Shown: in pieces, positions 5,925 to 17,432 of the stretch | Layout of the letters: each line of letters begins with the position of its first letter | Numbering within the stretch: position 1 is the stretch's first letter | Assembly: GCA_009695275.1 (NCBI GenBank) | Contig: SIBF01000002.1 | Span: 1-54,309, forward strand | From: Pedosphaera sp. | GTDB lineage: Bacteria; Verrucomicrobiota; Verrucomicrobiia; Limisphaerales; F1-12-MAGs170 | Length of the DNA stretch: 54,309 nucleotides | Direction: 5' to 3' | Made by a program: the position numbers and the translations under genes | The notes under the pieces: generated by a model | Told to the model about the DNA's origin: nothing | The model's input: the letters and a program-made list of their open reading frames with translations, nothing else | Databases searched by the model: none

Positions 5925-7979
5925 CGCCTGAAATGGTCAAAGCTCTGGCCGGCGCTCATCGGTGCGCTCATCGCATCGGGCGTGGGTGTTGTCCTTGTGT
6001 ATTATCCCTTGGGGCGCGGGCTGGTGAATCTCAGTTACGACGTTCCCCTCGCGCTGCGGCAGCGTTTCCAACCGCCACCGGTTCCTCAAGATGCCGTCAT
6101 CATCTACATCGACGGCCAGTCAGCTGATCGGTTGAAGCAGGAAGTTTCGCGAACATGGGAACGCTCCCTGCACGCGAAACTCCTGAATCGACTCACCGCC
6201 GATGGAGCGAGGTCCGTCACCTATGATATTTTCTTCGCAGATCCGAGTCCGCCGGAGAAGAAAACCCAGGACGAGGAATTCGCCCAGTCGATCAAGCGCA
6301 ATGGACGCGTTGTGCTGGGTGCTGACTTTAGTCATCTGGGCTACGAAAAGGATGCCGGTGCCATCGGGATGCAGATCATGCCGCCATTGGACATCTTTTC
6401 AGAGTCAGCGGCGAACCTCGCCTCTGTGGAGACGAATCCGGACAACGATCTGGTCATCCGCCGCCACCTCCCGTTTTCCAAGCTAGACCTAGTGCCTCCC
6501 CTGGCCTGGGCCGCCGCTGAACTTGCGGGAGCCTCCTCCGCAACTTCCGCCGTGGTCCGCGCCACCGAGCGTTGGATCAACTATTACGGGCCACCTCGGA
6601 GCGTCCCGAGCTTTAGTTTTTACCGCGCGGTTTCCGAGGATCCGTTGGACCTGCCGCTGCCACCAGGATTCTTCAAGGACAAGTCCGTCTTCATCGGCGG
6701 TGGATTTGTGACCCGCCTCGCCAGCGACCGCAAAGATGAATTTGCCACTCCGTTCTGGTTGAATCGCGAGAAGTCCACCGACCTGCGGTTCATGGCCGGA
6801 GTCGAGATGCACGCCACGGTCTTCCTGAATCTGCTCCGCGGAGAATGGCTCACGCGGACCCCCGGCGGCACAGAATTCTGGCTGATGTTGGGCAGCGGCG
6901 CGGTTCTCGGTTTCAGCCTGACGAGGCTTCGCCCTGTGCTTGCAAGCATGCTTGCCGTGTCGGCCGCCGCGATGTTCGCGGTTATCGGATACGTTGCTGT
7001 GACGCATTATCTAACTTGGTACCCGTGGGCGATTCCGGTTCTTGCGATCATTCCCACAGCCTGGGGTTGGTCCGTTTTTTACAACTCGGTCAGCCTTTAT
7101 GTGCAGAAGCGAGTGCTCGAACAATCCCTCTCGCGCTACCTTTCTCCCAAGCTCGTGAGAATCTTCGCCAACCGGCCGGAGTTCCTGAAAACCGGGGCGG
7201 ACAAACAGCTCATCACCATCCTCTTCAGCGACATTGCCAACTTCACCAGCCTGTCCGAAGGCATGGATGGAGATCAACTGGCCAAATCGGTGAACTCCTA
7301 TTTTGATCGTGCCGTTCCCTCCTGCATTTTCAAAACCGATGGCACTGTCATGAAATTCATCGGCGATGCCATCTTCGCCATCTGGAACGCGCCCGAGACG
7401 CAGTCAGATCACCACCTTCGCGCCTGCCGCGCCGCGCTGTTGCTGCGCGACGAGATGAGTGACTTCAAACTGGCAGGTTCCGACATACCGCTTCGAACCC
7501 GCATCGGCCTTCATACTGGAATTGCCAACGTGGGCAACTTCGGCAGCGCGGAAAAGTTCGGCTACGACGCCATTGGCGAGAGCATCAACCTCGCCTCGCG
7601 CATGGAGGGCTTGAACAAGCACCTCGGCACTGACGTGCTGATCACAGGCGAGACACACCAGGCCATCGACGGCCAGTTGGTCAGCCGCCGTCTGGGATCT
7701 TTTCGCCTGAAGGGCTTTGAAAAGGCCGTGGAAGTTTTTGAACTCGTGAGCGAGCCGGAAAAGGCTGCTGAATCCAAAGCCTGGCGTGAAAACTTCGCCG
7801 AAGGCTTGAAGCGGTTCGTGCAGCGAGAATTCACCGAAGCCGAGACTGCCTTCCACCGCGTTCTGGAGCTCAAACCTGGCGACGGCCCTTCCAGCTATTA
7901 CCTCGAACGCATCACGGAATTGGAAACCTCACCACCCGGGCCCGACTGGACAGGAGTCATCGAGCTGAAGGAGAAGTGA
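5922..7979 (+). CDS. CHASE2-domain class III adenylate cyclase
   Basis: A 685-residue inner-membrane protein. An N-terminal membrane anchor (~residues 5-28) precedes an extracytoplasmic CHASE2 sensor (~35-315, with VIIYIDGQSADRL and SVTYDIFFADPS). Three membrane helices follow (~318-390), then a class III nucleotide cyclase domain from ~425 to 620. Catalytic residues look complete: metal-binding D437 (LFSDIANF) and D482 (KFIGDAIFAIW), transition-state N556 and R560 (SINLASR). K478 and D549 occupy the positions that bind adenine in adenylate cyclases, so cAMP rather than cGMP is predicted. A short TPR-like tail follows. CHASE2 cyclases often occur next to FecR-domain proteins, as here. No cAMP receptor protein is encoded in the window. 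Domain assignment is firm; the sensed signal is unknown. Confidence 0.92.
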   Translation: MRLKWSKLWPALIGALIASGVGVVLVYYPLGRGLVNLSYDVPLALRQRFQPPPVPQDAVIIYIDGQSADRLKQEVSRTWERSLHAKLLNRLTADGARSVTYDIFFADPSPPEKKTQDEEFAQSIKRNGRVVLGADFSHLGYEKDAGAIGMQIMPPLDIFSESAANLASVETNPDNDLVIRRHLPFSKLDLVPPLAWAAAELAGASSATSAVVRATERWINYYGPPRSVPSFSFYRAVSEDPLDLPLPPGFFKDKSVFIGGGFVTRLASDRKDEFATPFWLNREKSTDLRFMAGVEMHATVFLNLLRGEWLTRTPGGTEFWLMLGSGAVLGFSLTRLRPVLASMLAVSAAAMFAVIGYVAVTHYLTWYPWAIPVLAIIPTAWGWSVFYNSVSLYVQKRVLEQSLSRYLSPKLVRIFANRPEFLKTGADKQLITILFSDIANFTSLSEGMDGDQLAKSVNSYFDRAVPSCIFKTDGTVMKFIGDAIFAIWNAPETQSDHHLRACRAALLLRDEMSDFKLAGSDIPLRTRIGLHTGIANVGNFGSAEKFGYDAIGESINLASRMEGLNKHLGTDVLITGETHQAIDGQLVSRRLGSFRLKGFEKAVEVFELVSEPEKAAESKAWRENFAEGLKRFVQREFTEAETAFHRVLELKPGDGPSSYYLERITELETSPPGPDWTGVIELKEK

Positions 7980-8163
7980 TCAGCGGAGGTAATTGAGAAT
8001 TAGGAAGGCGGCGCATCCGGTCGGCTTGAGATGCAAACTGTTAGTGAACTCCCTTTTCCGACTTCACCTGCGTCCTGGAGTTTTGGTTTGCGCCGGACTT
8101 GACCTCCGGTAGTGTCGGGCCGCGAACGTGCGGGTGAGAGGCCGAATCCCAGTCGATCGTGAT

Positions 8164-9645
8164 ATGAAACCGCAGTCGAAGAAAACCAAGAAACCTTCTG
8201 ATTCAAAGAAGCTGTCCAAGCCCATCGCTGCCAAGCCCATCGCTGCCAAGCTCAAACCGGCCAGAGTTTCCAAATCGAAAACATCCAAAACCGTTGTCAA
8301 AGCCAAGTCTCCGGCAAAGGCTCGCAAACCAGCTTCAAAGACAGCCGCAAAGCCTGCCAAGCCGGCTCGAGGATCCGATGTCAAACTCAAGGCCGTGTCT
8401 CCTCCCCCGGTGCCTGGATCGCGACCGGTTCAACGCCGGCTGGCGATTCCGAAACTACTGCTCGAAGGAGACGCCCCGTCACAGGTTCTGCCCGTGCCGA
8501 GTGGGCCGGGCGAACGTTACGCGCTGGGGCCGGTAGCTCCGGCCTTTTCAGTTGCCGGTTGGGAGACGCCTGGCGAACTGCCGGAAGGCTACGGAACAAA
8601 AAAGCTTTTTCTGACAGCGCGCGACCCTCACTGGCTTTTCGCCTTTTGGGATCTCACCACGGAGCAGCGGCAGGAGTACAACAGGCAATCCGCGGAAGGA
8701 CACCTCGTGGTACGAATTTATCTGAATTCTTCCCGCAGAGAGATGGTCTCGGAAACTCAAGTTCATCCCGAGTCCCGCAGTTGGTTCATTTTTGTCGGGC
8801 AGGGAGGCGCTCGTTATGTCGCCGAGCTGGGCTACCTCTCGAAGAAGGGGAGCTGGCACTCGATCGCGATGTCGCCCGCAACGGTAACGCCTCCGGATCG
8901 TCAATCGGATGATGTTTCGGCGCAGTTCGTGACGCTTCCTCAGGCAGTGAAGTTTGAGGAAGTCGTGGTGGCGGCGCGCGAGGCTCTCGCGGAAAGTTTG
9001 CCTTTGGTGGAGATGATCGAGCAGTTACGTTCCGAAGGGCACGCTGGACTTCCCCGGATTCCCGAACCGCAGGTCGCGGGCACGAGCGAGGTCGCCGACA
9101 CTCCGGCTCCTCAGCCCGACTGGACGCCCGCACAGACGGAGGCGCTGGCCAAAGTGATCAAGCTGGACAGCCTGCGTCGCGTCTGGATGGGATCACTGGA
9201 AATCACGGAATTGATCCGCCGCCAGCTCCAGGTGGACGAGATCACAGGCGGAGCGGGTGGGATGGCCGCACTGGGCGCGGTTCTGAGCAATTTTGAACTC
9301 GGGGTTTCAAGCCCAACCCGCGCCGTGGATGCGAAGCGCGGAAAGAAGCGCTGTTTTTGGTTCAATATCAATGCGGAGCTGATCATCTACGGTTCCACGG
9401 AAAAGGATGCCGAGGTTACGATTGGCGGGCGTCACGTAAAACTGCGTCCAGACGGCAGCTTCAGTTTCAGGTTTGCATTGCCCGACGGCCAGTATGAACT
9501 TCCCGTGACGGCGGTCGCGTCGGACAAGGAAGAGGAGCGCCGGGCGTCCCTGACCTTCGCGCGCTCGACGGATTGCCTGGGGGACGTGGGAGCGCATCCG
9601 CAGGAATCCGGGCTGCGAGCGCCGGCGCCTGAAAACGTGCCATGA
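8164..9645 (+). CDS. DUF4912-domain protein with Lys/Ala/Pro-rich N-terminal tail
   Basis: About 493 residues from the ATG at 8164; the frame is also open from a GTG at 8128, so the exact start is uncertain. Residues ~1-85 are a low-complexity basic tail made of K, A, P and S (SKPIAAKPIAAK), resembling histone-H1-like or AlgP-like tails. The core matches the DUF4912 pattern (LFLTARDPHWLFAFWDLT, then HLVVRIY), a beta-sandwich thought to be related to carbohydrate-binding modules. A later beta-rich block contains AELIIYGSTEKDAEVTIGG. The gene ends 27 bases before a GH57 branching enzyme; this pairing is common and suggests a role in glycogen or alpha-glucan metabolism, perhaps as a scaffold. 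No catalytic residues are evident. Confidence 0.8.
   Translation: MKPQSKKTKKPSDSKKLSKPIAAKPIAAKLKPARVSKSKTSKTVVKAKSPAKARKPASKTAAKPAKPARGSDVKLKAVSPPPVPGSRPVQRRLAIPKLLLEGDAPSQVLPVPSGPGERYALGPVAPAFSVAGWETPGELPEGYGTKKLFLTARDPHWLFAFWDLTTEQRQEYNRQSAEGHLVVRIYLNSSRREMVSETQVHPESRSWFIFVGQGGARYVAELGYLSKKGSWHSIAMSPATVTPPDRQSDDVSAQFVTLPQAVKFEEVVVAAREALAESLPLVEMIEQLRSEGHAGLPRIPEPQVAGTSEVADTPAPQPDWTPAQTEALAKVIKLDSLRRVWMGSLEITELIRRQLQVDEITGGAGGMAALGAVLSNFELGVSSPTRAVDAKRGKKRCFWFNINAELIIYGSTEKDAEVTIGGRHVKLRPDGSFSFRFALPDGQYELPVTAVASDKEEERRASLTFARSTDCLGDVGAHPQESGLRAPAPENVP
8218..8247 (+). repeat. Exact 15-bp tandem duplication in the basic tail
   Basis: Two perfect copies of AAGCCCATCGCTGCC encode the repeated pentapeptide KPIAA. 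Being a multiple of three, the repeat can change tail length without a frameshift. Confidence 0.8.
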
Positions 9646-12170: not shown

Positions 12171-13268
12171 TCAGAACCGCCGCGAAACACTGGCCAGGAT
12201 CAGAAAATCCCCAACCGCTGACGTGCCCAGGATCTGCCTGCCTGCGGCAGCGCTTAATTGCTTTTCCAACACGCTACGTTCCCGGTTGCGCACCAACCCA
12301 ACGGGCGCACTTAGCGCGAACGAATTCTTGCCCCAGGTTAAGTTCAATCCCGGCTCCACGGAGAGCGTATAACCGGGCCGTCGAAACCCATCATCGCCGC
12401 CGCCGATGAGGTCTCGAACTGGTTGTCCTTCAATCCGAGGTCCCAAACTGACCGACAGACCTTTTTGCGGCCATAGTGCGTAGGACAATCCCAGGCGTCC
12501 CAAGTATTGATCTGGCACGCCATTGATGTAATTGAAACCGGTTGGGTACCAGGGTACGAAGGTTTCTGTGCCGTTCTTCTTTCGGGGATTGATCAGGTAA
12601 TAAGCTGCCGCGTAGAGATCGGTGTTCTTGAAGATCCGTTGGAACGCTTTCATCTGCAGGATGATGCCCCAACCGCCATCACCAGGTTGTGTGGAAGTGT
12701 CAACCGGGCGCATCACGGGACCCGTAGGTTGGTAGGAGATGTCCTTCGCATTGTAGTCCCCGGTCGGGGCTTTCACTCCGAGACTCAAGGAGACATTGCC
12801 ATCGCGATGTTTGTCCGGGTCCAACAGCCACGCGTTGCCGACCAAGCTCACATCTCCCAAACCTCCGGCGGTCATGGAGTATGCGGTCACAAAGTCGTGT
12901 TCGTAAGCCCAGCGGTGCTCGCCATAGACGAAGGGCAAGTTGAATGTGAAGCTGATTCGCTTGGTGAATGCGTAGGTTGCACTAATCGCAACCGAATAAC
13001 TGTTGCCAAAGTCTTCCGGACTTTCGAACTGTGTTAGCTCGTGACTGCCGGCAAACACCCGGTCAGAATGCAGCCAGCTATAGGAGAGCGATCCTGCCCA
13101 TTGTTGGGCCTCCAAATAGGAACCGTCTGCGGCACCCAAACTGGACGCCATTTGCCGGACAGTTCAGAGTTGAGAAAAAGCTTTCGGCGCGGAAACCAGC
13201 AAGACGAAAACCATGGCCGAACCGCCGAACCAGGCTTGAGCCTGCTTGGATACTGGAACATTTCGCAT
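12171..13268 (-). pseudogene. Outer-membrane beta-barrel protein interrupted by an in-frame TGA after the signal peptide
   Basis: Read from the ATG at 13268, the frame encodes a signal peptide (MRNVPVSKQAQAWFGG, then a hydrophobic run ending VSAPKAFSQL), then TGA at 13166-13164, then continues in the same frame through TVRQMASSLGAADGSYLEAQ to a barrel ending VSRRF. Without the stop it would encode 365 residues. The mature part has alternating strands, aromatic girdles and a C-terminal Phe, as in outer-membrane transport-like barrels. Using the internal ATG at 13151 would give 326 residues without an export signal, which makes no sense for a barrel. It is therefore most simply a nonsense mutation, with sequencing error or stop readthrough as alternatives. 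Function is unknown; neighbours give no hint. Confidence 0.65.
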
Positions 13269-13406: not shown

Positions 13407-16400
13407 CTATCTGTTGCCGGCTCTTTTCCCGCCGGCCTCATACTTTGCCCAGTCCGCTTTCCGCTTTTCCCAAACTGTTTTCTGCTCTTGGAGGAAAGTA
13501 ATGAACCCGACGTCGGGATGCAGATTTTTTAGATTGGGGTCATCTCTAAATAGCGGATAACACGGAAATCCAGACTCAGCGGTTTGCTTCAACCACTTGA
13601 GCGCCGCCTGTGTCTCGTTCAAGCGCGCATAGGCGCAGGCGATGAAATAAGTGGCGTGATGGGTTTCCCCAAAGCTGACGTTAGTTTTCTGCTCGGCGAT
13701 CTTGAGTTGCCCGATGGATTCGGCCTTCTTACCTTCGGCCGCCAGCAGCACGGCCTTCATGGCGGTGAGCTCCCCGGGTTGGTCATCGGCGTTCGCATCA
13801 AAGTATTTTTGAAGCTTGGCGTTGGCCTCGTTCGTCCTGCCGAGGGCGAACAAAGCCCAGGCCCAGTGGGATCCGCAAAGCGAAGGAAGAATTCCGCTAT
13901 CAGGGCCGGGCCAGAGCGAGAGGGACTGCTCGTGCTCTCCCTTCCAGAGAAGTGAGCACGCCCGGCTCGCTGACTGGTACAGGCCCTGCCCCAGCGGATC
14001 GAGCATCTCCGCTTCATTCGCACAGGCCAGGGATCCGTCGAAGAACCCGGTGTGGTTGTAAACCCAACCCATCCAGTTCAGTGCCTCGCCTGAGCTAGGG
14101 TTTAACTTCAGCGCGTCGTGGAAGAGCTGAAGCGCTTTTTCGTGGTCGAAATTTCCTGGGTGCCAATAGAGTCGTCCATTCTGTGCCCACGCCTCGGCCA
14201 GCGTCGGATTGAGGGTAATTGCCTTCAATACCGCTTTCTCTGCATTGCCCTTCCACGGCTTGTCGGGTTCCGCCTCGTAGCGATAAAAACGAAAGATGTT
14301 AGCGCCGGCAAGAGCCGCCCAGGCGGGGGCAAAGTCCATATCGATGGCGACAGCGCGCTGGTACAATTTGATTTGCTCCTTGTTGGTCGTGTCACCGTCG
14401 CCGAGTCTTACGGCCTTCCCTTTGTAGTACAAATCCAATGCCTCTGGTTTGACCCGAAGAGCGCTGGCGAAACGAGCCTGTTCCTCCGGGTGCAACTTCA
14501 GTTTCATCTTTCTCACGATGGCCAGAGCGACTTCATTCTGCAAGGTGAACACGTCGCGCACGTCGCGCTCGTACTCTGCGGACCACAGCGGCCGATCAGT
14601 CGGCCCCTTGAACAACCGCACGCCGATCTGCACTTTGTCTGTCGCTCGCTTGAATGTCCCTTGGACCACGAAATCCACATTCAAGTTCCGCGCAATCTCC
14701 GGCACCGAGTTGGTCGTCTTCTGAAACTGCATCACCGTTGCGCGCCCGATGACCCGCAGTGCGCTGATCCGACCCAAATTGCTGATGAGGTCATCTGTCG
14801 TTTCGTTGGCGAAGTAATCCTCGTCCACGACACCGGAGAGATTCACCAGCGGCAAAACGGCCAGCTTCACGGGCGGAGCCTCCTTGTCTCCGCCTCTACC
14901 TTGTTTGAAGGCAAACAGCGCCAGCAACAAGACCGCCGTGACCAGGGCGAAGGCCACGGTCGTTCGCCGCAGGAGCCTGCCGCGAGTCGCCGCCCTTTCC
15001 CGCAGCGCCAAGTCGGCTCGTCGTTGGCCCAAGGCGCGGAGGTTCCTCGCCAACTGGCCGGCCTCGGCAAAGCGCTCCTGTGGATTGCCCGCGAAGCATT
15101 TCTGCAAATCCTCGCGTAACAACGGATCGTTGATCTCACGCGCCCAGTCCGTCGTCAGCGGGTGAGAAAAATCTCCTGCGAGAATTTGAAAGAGTACCAC
15201 GCCGAGCGAGTAGATGTCCGAGCGCGCCGATGCCGGTTTCCCAGCCAGAAGCTCCGGCGCCATGTAAAGCTGCGTCCCCGTGTGCGACGAAGAGCCGGAT
15301 CCCATCATCGTCTGCGTAAAACCCGCCTTCGTCAATCCCGCCAGCGCCTCCTGCGAAACCACCTGCCCGATGCCGAAGTCGGTCAGCTTGGCTCTTACCT
15401 CGTAGCAGCCGACGTGAGGAGGCTCATTCTTTTCGGCACCACCAGAAGGGACCGCAGTTAGAGCCTCGTTACCTCGGCTGCTACGAACAGTATGAACGAG
15501 GATGTTCGACGGCTTCACGTCCCGGTGGATCACGCCCGCTTCATGCGCCGCCTGCAACGCGTCCGCCACTTGCGCCACAATCTCCAGCCGCGTCGCCAGC
15601 GGCACCTTCTCCGCCCCGCCTTGCGCCTCCCACCATCCGCGCAAGTCCTGGCCCGCCTCGTAATCCATCACGATGTAAAACGGCGGCGCGTCGAAGAACA
15701 CTTCCTGAATGCCCACGATGTTCGGATGCTGCCCCACCTTTTCCTTCAACAACCGAAACAACGTCACTTCCCGTTTCAATGAGCGCACGCGATCCGCTCG
15801 AAAGCAAAACTTGAACACGCGCCGGTCTTTGAGCGTTTCATGCCGGCCCAGCCACACTTCACCAAACCCGCCTTCGCCCAACTTCTGTTCCAGCACCCAT
15901 TTTGTGTTCGGCACCGCCTGGCCCAGTGCCGGTCGCCACCCGAGCACTTGTTCCTCGCCGGGCGTCACCTGCCGTTGCGCTTTTACCGAGGTCGTCGGTG
16001 GACCACCAGTCTTCTGGCCCGCCTCCGCGATCTCACAAATCTCCACCGCCCCATCGACCCCTTCCAGGACGTATGGCCCGTGATTGAGCCACGAAAGCTG
16101 CCCCAGACCTTCCACCGCCTCCGTTCTCACCACTTGCCGCGCGCTGTCGAACACCGCACGGCTCATGAGAATCTGCCCGGGCCGCGCCACTTGCAGCAGC
16201 CGCTCGCACAGCACCAACTGCTCGCCGAACTGTTCGTGCGCTTTGTCCGCCTGCGCCTTCACCACTTCACCCAGATGAATGCCGATCCGGCATGTCAACG
16301 GCTTGGCCGTCGCCAACTGCATGCCCAAGGCGAACTGCACCGCGCTCGAAGGCCGGGCGAAACTCAACAGCGTCGCATTCCTTCCACGCTCCAGCACCAC

Positions 16401-17432
16401 CGACTGTGAAGACGCTCGCAGGCGTTGCTCGAACAGGGTCTGATGCGCCTGCAGCAGTTGCGTGGCTTCGCGCACTCCCAGCGATTTCTCCACCTCCTCG
16501 CCATTCGTGCTCAGAAACAGCAGCGTGACCACCTGCCCGGTGCCAGCCCAGGCCGGTGCCATTACCGCCGTCTTCACCGTCTCTGGCGCTCTCAGACTCT
16601 CCTTCAAACTCCGCAGGTCCACGATCAAGTCCCGCGCCGATTGATACCGCTCCTCCGGCGCTTTCCGCAGACACTTGAGGATCATCCGCTCCAACTCGGC
16701 GGGCACAGCGGGATTGAATCGCGCCAGTGCTTCCGGCGTGCTTTGTAAAATCTTGTCGAGCGTCTCACTCACATTCCGTCCCGCAAACGGGGCCCGTCCC
16801 GTCACCATCTCGTAAAGCACCGTTCCCAAAGCAAACAGGTCCGTCCGCGCATCCACTTCCCCGGCCAGCGCCTGCTCCGGACTCATGTAATTGGGAGTTC
16901 CCAACACTTGTCCCACTTGCGTCTGCACCAACGTCGCCGCTTCCTCCGTCGCGCTCTCGACCGCCAGCCGCTTCGCCAATCCAAAGTCGAGCACCTTCAC
17001 GCGTCCATCGCCGGTCACATGAAGGTTCGACGGCTTGATGTCGCGGTGAACGATTCCCTTGGCATGAGCGGCCGAGAGAGCTTCCACGATTTGCAACCCG
17101 ATCTCGATCAACTCGGGCATCTCCAGGTTCCCGCGCTTGAGCCGGGCTCCGAGAGTTTCTCCCTCCAACAATTCCATCGCGATGAAGGGGCGGCCGTCTT
17201 CCGCTTCGCCCACTTCGTAAATGGTGCAGATGTTCGGATGATTGAGGGCGGCCACGGCTTTGGCCTCGGTGAGAAAGCGCTGTCGATGACGGCTGTCCCC
17301 AGCGGATTCAGCCGGGAGGAACTTCAGCGCCACCGAACGGTCGAGCCGGGTGTCCTGCGCGAGAAACACTTCTCCCATCCCTCCGGCACCCAAAGACCGA
17401 ACCACCTGATAATGTCGGACGGTAGCGAGCAT
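13407..17432 (-). CDS. Dual Ser/Thr protein kinase with degenerate cyclase domain, membrane segment and TPRs
   Basis: A 1341-residue protein. Kinase 1 (~residues 8-275) has GAGGMGEV, K37, HRDIKPSN near 132, DFG and a SPEQ activation-segment end. Residues ~300-475 resemble a class III cyclase (CRIGIHLGEVVKA), but the metal-binding aspartates are missing (FLSTNGEEV where FTDI is usual), so it is probably regulatory. Kinase 2 (~507-800) has GEGGFGEVWLG, an FKF lysine, HRDVKPSN (D638), DFG (~685) and APE; both kinases appear catalytically intact. A ~30-residue insertion at ~649-678 comes from a palindromic repeat. One membrane helix (~822-841) precedes a TolB/adenylate-cyclase-associated-type domain (LAVLPLVNLSG) and TPRs to the end. 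The kinases should be cytoplasmic and the TPR part periplasmic. Substrates are unknown. Confidence 0.9.
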   Translation of the reverse strand: MLATVRHYQVVRSLGAGGMGEVFLAQDTRLDRSVALKFLPAESAGDSRHRQRFLTEAKAVAALNHPNICTIYEVGEAEDGRPFIAMELLEGETLGARLKRGNLEMPELIEIGLQIVEALSAAHAKGIVHRDIKPSNLHVTGDGRVKVLDFGLAKRLAVESATEEAATLVQTQVGQVLGTPNYMSPEQALAGEVDARTDLFALGTVLYEMVTGRAPFAGRNVSETLDKILQSTPEALARFNPAVPAELERMILKCLRKAPEERYQSARDLIVDLRSLKESLRAPETVKTAVMAPAWAGTGQVVTLLFLSTNGEEVEKSLGVREATQLLQAHQTLFEQRLRASSQSVVLERGRNATLLSFARPSSAVQFALGMQLATAKPLTCRIGIHLGEVVKAQADKAHEQFGEQLVLCERLLQVARPGQILMSRAVFDSARQVVRTEAVEGLGQLSWLNHGPYVLEGVDGAVEICEIAEAGQKTGGPPTTSVKAQRQVTPGEEQVLGWRPALGQAVPNTKWVLEQKLGEGGFGEVWLGRHETLKDRRVFKFCFRADRVRSLKREVTLFRLLKEKVGQHPNIVGIQEVFFDAPPFYIVMDYEAGQDLRGWWEAQGGAEKVPLATRLEIVAQVADALQAAHEAGVIHRDVKPSNILVHTVRSSRGNEALTAVPSGGAEKNEPPHVGCYEVRAKLTDFGIGQVVSQEALAGLTKAGFTQTMMGSGSSSHTGTQLYMAPELLAGKPASARSDIYSLGVVLFQILAGDFSHPLTTDWAREINDPLLREDLQKCFAGNPQERFAEAGQLARNLRALGQRRADLALRERAATRGRLLRRTTVAFALVTAVLLLALFAFKQGRGGDKEAPPVKLAVLPLVNLSGVVDEDYFANETTDDLISNLGRISALRVIGRATVMQFQKTTNSVPEIARNLNVDFVVQGTFKRATDKVQIGVRLFKGPTDRPLWSAEYERDVRDVFTLQNEVALAIVRKMKLKLHPEEQARFASALRVKPEALDLYYKGKAVRLGDGDTTNKEQIKLYQRAVAIDMDFAPAWAALAGANIFRFYRYEAEPDKPWKGNAEKAVLKAITLNPTLAEAWAQNGRLYWHPGNFDHEKALQLFHDALKLNPSSGEALNWMGWVYNHTGFFDGSLACANEAEMLDPLGQGLYQSASRACSLLWKGEHEQSLSLWPGPDSGILPSLCGSHWAWALFALGRTNEANAKLQKYFDANADDQPGELTAMKAVLLAAEGKKAESIGQLKIAEQKTNVSFGETHHATYFIACAYARLNETQAALKWLKQTAESGFPCYPLFRDDPNLKNLHPDVGFITFLQEQKTVWEKRKADWAKYEAGGKRAGNR
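15398..15487. repeat. Palindromic repeat element inside the kinase gene
   Basis: Arms at 15400-15429 and 15457-15486 match in 24 of 30 positions when one is reverse-complemented; the first 13 bases (TCGTAGCAGCCGA) are identical. The spacer is 27 bases. It lies in the second kinase domain between the catalytic loop and the DFG motif and keeps the frame open. Its shape is that of a mobile REP/MITE-like hairpin; whether it occurs elsewhere in the genome cannot be seen here. Confidence 0.75.

Follow-up and report, generated by a model that had tools for sequence, protein, structure and literature searches.

On the minus strand of the analysed stretch (the window, 54,309 nucleotides of Pedosphaera sp. 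DNA), positions 12171..13268 hold a predicted selenoprotein gene of 365 codons, including an internal TGA, for an outer-membrane channel resembling FapF and the COG4313 proteins. The frame opens with the ATG at 13268 and runs through MRNVPVSKQAQAWFGGSAMVFVLLVSAPKAFSQL to the in-frame TGA at 13164..13166, followed by codons for T, V, R and Q and a Met at 13151, from which the barrel frame stays open to ...SVSRRF and a further TGA, the true stop codon, at 12171..12173; homologues terminate at the same Phe. Residues 1–32 (13173..13268) make up a signal peptide for which the A-x-A rule predicts the cleavage AFS|QL-Sec, the internal TGA is the predicted selenocysteine codon 35 (residue 3 of the mature protein), and a predicted SECIS hairpin lies at 13131..13149. 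Positions 12174..13163 encode an N-terminal tail, possibly a plug, and a β-barrel, and a protein kinase-TPR gene, a possible operon partner, lies upstream on the same strand (13407..17432). The window's own genome (bin G000, 66% complete) contains one copy of the barrel. The first-pass annotation had described a signal peptide and a barrel in one frame, split by the TGA at 13166-13164 and four codons, with the barrel intact to its C-terminal Phe; all its coordinates were correct, and we verified the frame to ...VSRRF. It had offered a recent mutation, a miscalled base or readthrough of the stop as explanations.

AlphaFold2 returned a confident barrel (pLDDT 91, pTM 0.89) of the PF13557/COG4313/FapF type, for which the best PDB matches were FapF (E 8e-15) and the COG4313 channel 4rl8 (E 1e-11). 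FapF was likewise the best match in a profile search (E 2.5e-9), and Pfam PF13557 was matched by the window protein with 25.9 bits (gathering score 22) and by 16 of 65 family members at E ≤ 0.001. The mature N-terminus reads Q-G-[C/U]-x-x-x-R, with the Gln found in 101/101 members and the Gly in 100/101, and the invariant Gln is preceded by A, G, S or T in 101/101. We infer that signal peptidase I would cleave the window protein right before Q-L-Sec. Reading Q-G-C as a lipoprotein signal is less likely, as positions −3 and −2 of the supposed lipobox are occupied by A/G/S and Q, respectively, whereas A-x-A|Q fits signal peptidase I.

Family matches were present in 59 of 196 related genomes; a profile built from 20 members matched 24 of 384 genomes of the class and found 248 places in GTDB contigs, whereas a scan of the same contigs with the single protein gave no match. 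The closest homologues, at about 50% identity (G001 of the same genus, G177, G166 and G069), have TGA at the same point, as does G151. Among the 102 members in which the site could be resolved, the homologous codon was TGC in 42, TGT in 31 and TGA in 29, with no other codon and never TAA or TAG; thus the in-frame UGA stands where homologues have Cys (73 members), which is one of the criteria for a bacterial selenoprotein. The site motif A-x-A|Q-G-[C/U]-V-x-x-R directly follows the signal-peptidase site, the TGA homologues reading ...QG-TGA-V-[PA]-x-[RK]... and the other relatives ...AQG-C-V-A-x-R-G.... TGA members came from records named Verrucomicrobiota, Planctomycetota, Gemmatimonadota and Acidobacteriota, and one of the 29 TGA genes (G052, L007) is a single base out of frame with its own signal peptide. 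A tree calculated without the N-terminal columns requires three or more changes of the Cys/TGA trait and places the window in a clade of 15 rows, all with TGA. Such an exchange of Cys and TGA is the usual hallmark of selenocysteine.

Both sides of the TGA behave as parts of one protein. Between the window and the same-genus copy, dN was 0.37 and dS 2.2 for the barrel, and the signal peptide, which aligns in the same frame, was also constrained (dN 0.32, dS 1.13); barrel dN/dS was low in the pairs tested. A rival reading has ribosomes re-initiate after the TGA to make the barrel as a separate product, the signal peptide being a leader peptide. Such a scheme could draw on the Met four codons after the TGA in the window and on the TGAGTG or TGAATG found in many relatives, but no start codon directly follows the TGA in the window and several relatives (TGAACT, TGACCC, TGAGGG, TGATGT), several TGA relatives have no Met nearby, the Cys members are one continuous frame and the barrel alone would lack an export signal, so that re-initiation is very improbable. 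The related idea in the first-pass annotation, that homologues truly start at the internal Met, is refuted by the several TGA homologues that have no Met there; in addition, the stretch from TGA to Met shows conservation at the protein level.

Downstream of the TGA, the window sequence can form a hairpin (13149-13131) with the stem GGCGUCCA / UGGGUGCC and the loop GUU (A-GUU-U), 22 nt from UGA to loop, and the family shares a GGCGCUCA/UGGGCGCC-like stem with a GUU loop. The published bacterial SECIS model (bSECIS; PMC13188914) specifies a loop of 3–9 nt, a stem of 4–16 bp, G in the first two loop positions, a distance of 16–37 nt from the UGA and a minimum free energy ≤ −7.5. The window hairpin lies within these bounds (loop 3, stem 8–9, G at the first position, 22 nt from the UGA, −8.7 to −9.3 for the hairpin folded in isolation), and a bSECIS-fitting hairpin (dG ≤ −7.5) followed only 3.6% of the 1840 TGA triplets in the window; a CAGUUUG-type loop at the right distance followed 0.7% of them. 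Across the 29 TGA genes, 88.8% of cells were paired and covariation was 0.333 as compared with 0.198 (sd 0.020) after shuffling (0/500), with all shifted registers far lower; the outermost pair varied among GC, CG and UA and an inner one among CG, UG and UA, and an 18-gene version of the analysis also supported the hairpin. Further, at codons +7 to +9 after the TGA the third-base mismatch at four-fold sites fell to 0.045 in TGA members, compared with 0.48–0.70 (about 65%) elsewhere, and the Cys members showed no dip at these codons (0.576). Synonymous sites are thus frozen in TGA members and not in Cys members, which implies a constraint on the nucleotides themselves that is tied to the TGA. 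The window hairpin is among the weaker ones and, taken as a single sequence, does not stand out (z 0.16), with a rival fold competing, and because single-sequence z-scores are weak the case for the hairpin rests on covariation and the frozen synonymous sites. Two TGA members (L185, L203) have other loops; at L116 2491-2538 (G234) a GGUCU loop stands in place of AGUUU at the same stem position.

At the level of the family, the sharing of the TGA by 29 homologues from several phyla, with Cys otherwise, together with the conserved hairpin, excludes both the recent mutation and the base miscall considered in the first-pass annotation. For the window gene, a recent nonsense mutation or sequencing error would require a change of only one base (TGC to TGA) in draft-bin data; given that TGA is common to these homologues and never replaced by TAA or TAG, and that the hairpin is tied to it, an origin of this kind is scarcely credible. 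A contrast is provided by a same-genus barrel copy (L083 5187-6263, G001:C10), in which a second in-frame TGA at residue 296 of that stretch replaces an Arg of its relatives and is absent from them, and is probably a true nonsense change or an assembly error. The TGA in the window is almost certainly a conserved selenocysteine codon and not a mutation. The readthrough option of the first-pass annotation was therefore right in effect, the specific event, which it left unnamed, being UGA-to-selenocysteine recoding.

The distribution of the selenocysteine machinery agrees with this reading. Of 19 TGA genomes, 17 had a SelB scoring over its cut-off; the two without one were the least complete of those with a known figure (G000, the window's, 66%; G188, 60%). 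Among 22 Cys-only genomes that are at least 90% complete, 8 had SelB. With related genomes treated as independent, Fisher tests of TGA against Cys-only genomes gave p = 0.008 for the near-complete TGA genomes alone (6/6), 8e-5 with eight record-derived genomes added (14/14) and 6e-4 with all 19 TGA genomes. For tRNA-Sec, a search at the default E-value was uninformative because ordinary tRNAs matched in every genome; the evidence used was therefore limited to hits that exceeded the cut-off or to a SelB that exceeded its own. In the same-genus genome G001 a single contig carries tRNA-Sec (Rfam 65.5 bits), selD, selA and selB, followed directly after selB by a TGA barrel on the opposite strand (7114-8277, minus; L077 2377-10037, G001:C111) and, beyond it, a divergent vanadium-chloroperoxidase-like gene. 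The selD of G001 has an in-frame TGA of its own (Sec-type SelD), as has SelD of related TGA genomes. G041:C52 has a TGA barrel some 6 kb past selB. An in-frame TGA is also present in formate-dehydrogenase-like molybdopterin oxidoreductases at G001:C148:2516-3256, G166:C64:14852-15589 and G234:C4:19202-22225, which are probably additional selenoproteins of the respective genomes.

It could be argued that a residue other than selenocysteine is inserted at the UGA, whether the codon is reassigned across the genome or read through unspecifically, since Cys is found in all non-TGA homologues and UGA-to-Cys would also suit the protein alignment. TGA nevertheless ends 16 of 27 long frames in the window and the barrel gene itself, and is thus an ordinary stop there; the hairpin of bSECIS geometry, the co-occurrence with SelB and the TGA within SelD of related TGA genomes indicate selenocysteine instead and leave this explanation with only a minute probability. 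Cumulatively, the comparative evidence that UGA is decoded as selenocysteine is strong at the family level.

Confidence in the claim is greater for the family than for the window copy, because the latter is the odd one of its clade: judged from the alignment it is divergent, in that the Gly preceding Sec, invariant elsewhere, is replaced by Leu, the spacer from TGA to hairpin is shorter by one codon, and changes affect 11 of 63 conserved positions, one of the highest counts. The window gene might accordingly belong to a selenocysteine family and itself be decaying, or its species might have lost the machinery, so that TGA is a stop here. In keeping with such decay are the odd residues at and near the site, the weak hairpin, the decayed or frameshifted copies in the relatives G177 and G052, and the fact that none of SelA, SelB, SelD and tRNA-Sec was over cut-off in the window's own bin, in which we also found no other TGA-bearing gene, including formate dehydrogenase as a second selenoprotein, of which G001, G166 and G234 each have a TGA-bearing copy. 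Against it, the bin is just 66% complete, and the genes flanking the sel locus of G001 likewise had no orthologue in it (only a weak match at 30% identity for one, none for the other), so that the sel region of the window's species was probably left unassembled. Moreover, the frame is intact for 330 codons despite about 50% divergence, the barrel has the low dN relative to dS given above, and the hairpin stem has survived G-U and other changes. We consider decay of the window copy, or loss of the machinery from its species, quite unlikely. Frameshifted or decayed barrel copies were seen in multi-copy genomes, at L087 3150-3560 (G052:C101), L071 7712-7918 (G177:C23) and L076 (G052:C71).

Taken as a whole, the window gene very probably encodes an exported selenoprotein, a channel of predicted FapF/COG4313 fold with SECIS-directed selenocysteine at UGA codon 35. 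In this mechanism SelB and tRNA-Sec would decode the UGA, directed by the hairpin inside the coding sequence 22 nt downstream, and predicted cleavage right before Q-L-Sec would leave selenocysteine as residue 3 of the mature channel. Selenium shortage would stop translation just past the signal peptide and leave the cell without this channel. In FapF and COG4313 structures an N-terminal segment plugs the pore (PMC4493636, PMC5557850): the N-terminal ~14 residues of Pput2725 reach in from the periplasm and fold within the lumen (PMC4493636), and the FapF pore is gated by a helical plug (PMC5557850). By analogy, selenocysteine, or Cys in the relatives, may act on a plug through its redox state or metal binding, and a plug selenocysteine may gate the channel or contact an envelope partner; with the first 20 residues of the model poorly determined (pLDDT 55–62), this plug role is put forward as an inference. 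The mature window protein has no Cys besides the Sec position, so a selenol there would have to use an outside partner or another subunit. No cysteine at all occurs in the mature protein of 15 of 23 Sec members examined, and a second Cys in the N-terminal tail (mature positions 5–21) is found in 30 of 42 Cys members as compared with 6 of 23 Sec members, so that in most Sec members the selenol would be without an internal partner and Sec seems to take the place of two Cys residues. Our best guess is that a redox- or metal-dependent bond of selenocysteine with another subunit, an envelope partner or a small molecule controls the pore.

The neighbouring genes support, and do not decide, an envelope redox or signalling setting. 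Vanadium-chloroperoxidase/DUF6851-like genes stand beside members at 13 loci (L077, L134-L136, L152, L160, L182, L187, L196, L206-L208, L215), with both Cys and Sec forms, and UnbV/ASPIC FG-GAP proteins beside seven loci of Cys type or unclassified. Cyclase- or kinase-TPR proteins are present at 22 loci (some loci overlap), including the kinase upstream of the window gene. Within the window's clade, class III cyclase-TPR or kinase-TPR proteins lie beside most TGA members (L071, L073, L083-L085, L110, L116, L150, L151, L153, L162, L217). It is conceivable, though we regard it as speculative and rather doubtful, that the family consists of selenium-gated channels in which a plug selenocysteine acts as a switch responding to redox state or metal, with links to vanadium-peroxidase-like enzymes of the envelope and to signalling genes of the cyclase/kinase kind, and that it could be one reason why some soil and groundwater bacteria keep the selenocysteine machinery.

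If the selenoprotein reading is true, selenium chemistry takes place at the outer membrane and Sec-bearing chains pass the export machinery, and the three or more Cys/Sec swaps, with a SECIS accompanying TGA, amount to a natural experiment on the retention and loss of selenocysteine. Standard annotation would cut such a gene in two, losing the signal peptide and leaving a barrel that seems not to be exported. A 2026 catalogue lists 119 prokaryotic selenoprotein families, including the predicted outer-membrane GSU2204 barrel and a TonB receptor (PMC13188914), and has no entry of this Sec-channel type; no NCBIfam model (release of June 2026) was matched above its cut-off, and in the literature covered, mainly open-access journal papers, we found no such family. 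We therefore appear to be dealing with an uncatalogued family of exported bacterial channel proteins predicted to carry selenium at the front end.

Compared with known systems, the family shares the 12-stranded-type outer-membrane channel fold of FapF and the COG4313 channels (Pput2725, SphA, TcpY; Pfam PF13557) but differs from them in its short tail, the invariant Q-G-[Cys/Sec]-x-x-x-R and the absence of the FapF coiled coil; against the FapF equivalog NF058560 the score was 18.8 bits, far below the 700 cut-off. Like the GSU2204 family (MtrB/PioB-type, NF041027; listed in PMC13188914) it is a predicted outer-membrane barrel with selenocysteine, yet NF041027 did not match the window and gave relatives at most 17 bits against a cut-off of 350, over ~50 residues near the C-terminal end of the profile, so that GSU2204 is a different family. 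The TonB-dependent receptor of FCYXU type (NF049945; deep-Sep, PMC12013277) is also a predicted Sec-containing outer-membrane protein, but it has a CxxU motif and NF049945 found no match here, making it a separate family. The hairpin agrees with the bacterial SECIS of the bSECISearch model in its spacing, energy, stem length and loop size and in having, within the first two positions of the loop, a G with a U after it; it differs in its family-specific A-GUU-U loop at a nearly constant spacing of 25 nt to the loop (22 in the window). Finally, most catalogued selenoproteins are thiol-type redox proteins or redox enzymes, whereas here selenocysteine would be residue 3 of an exported channel.
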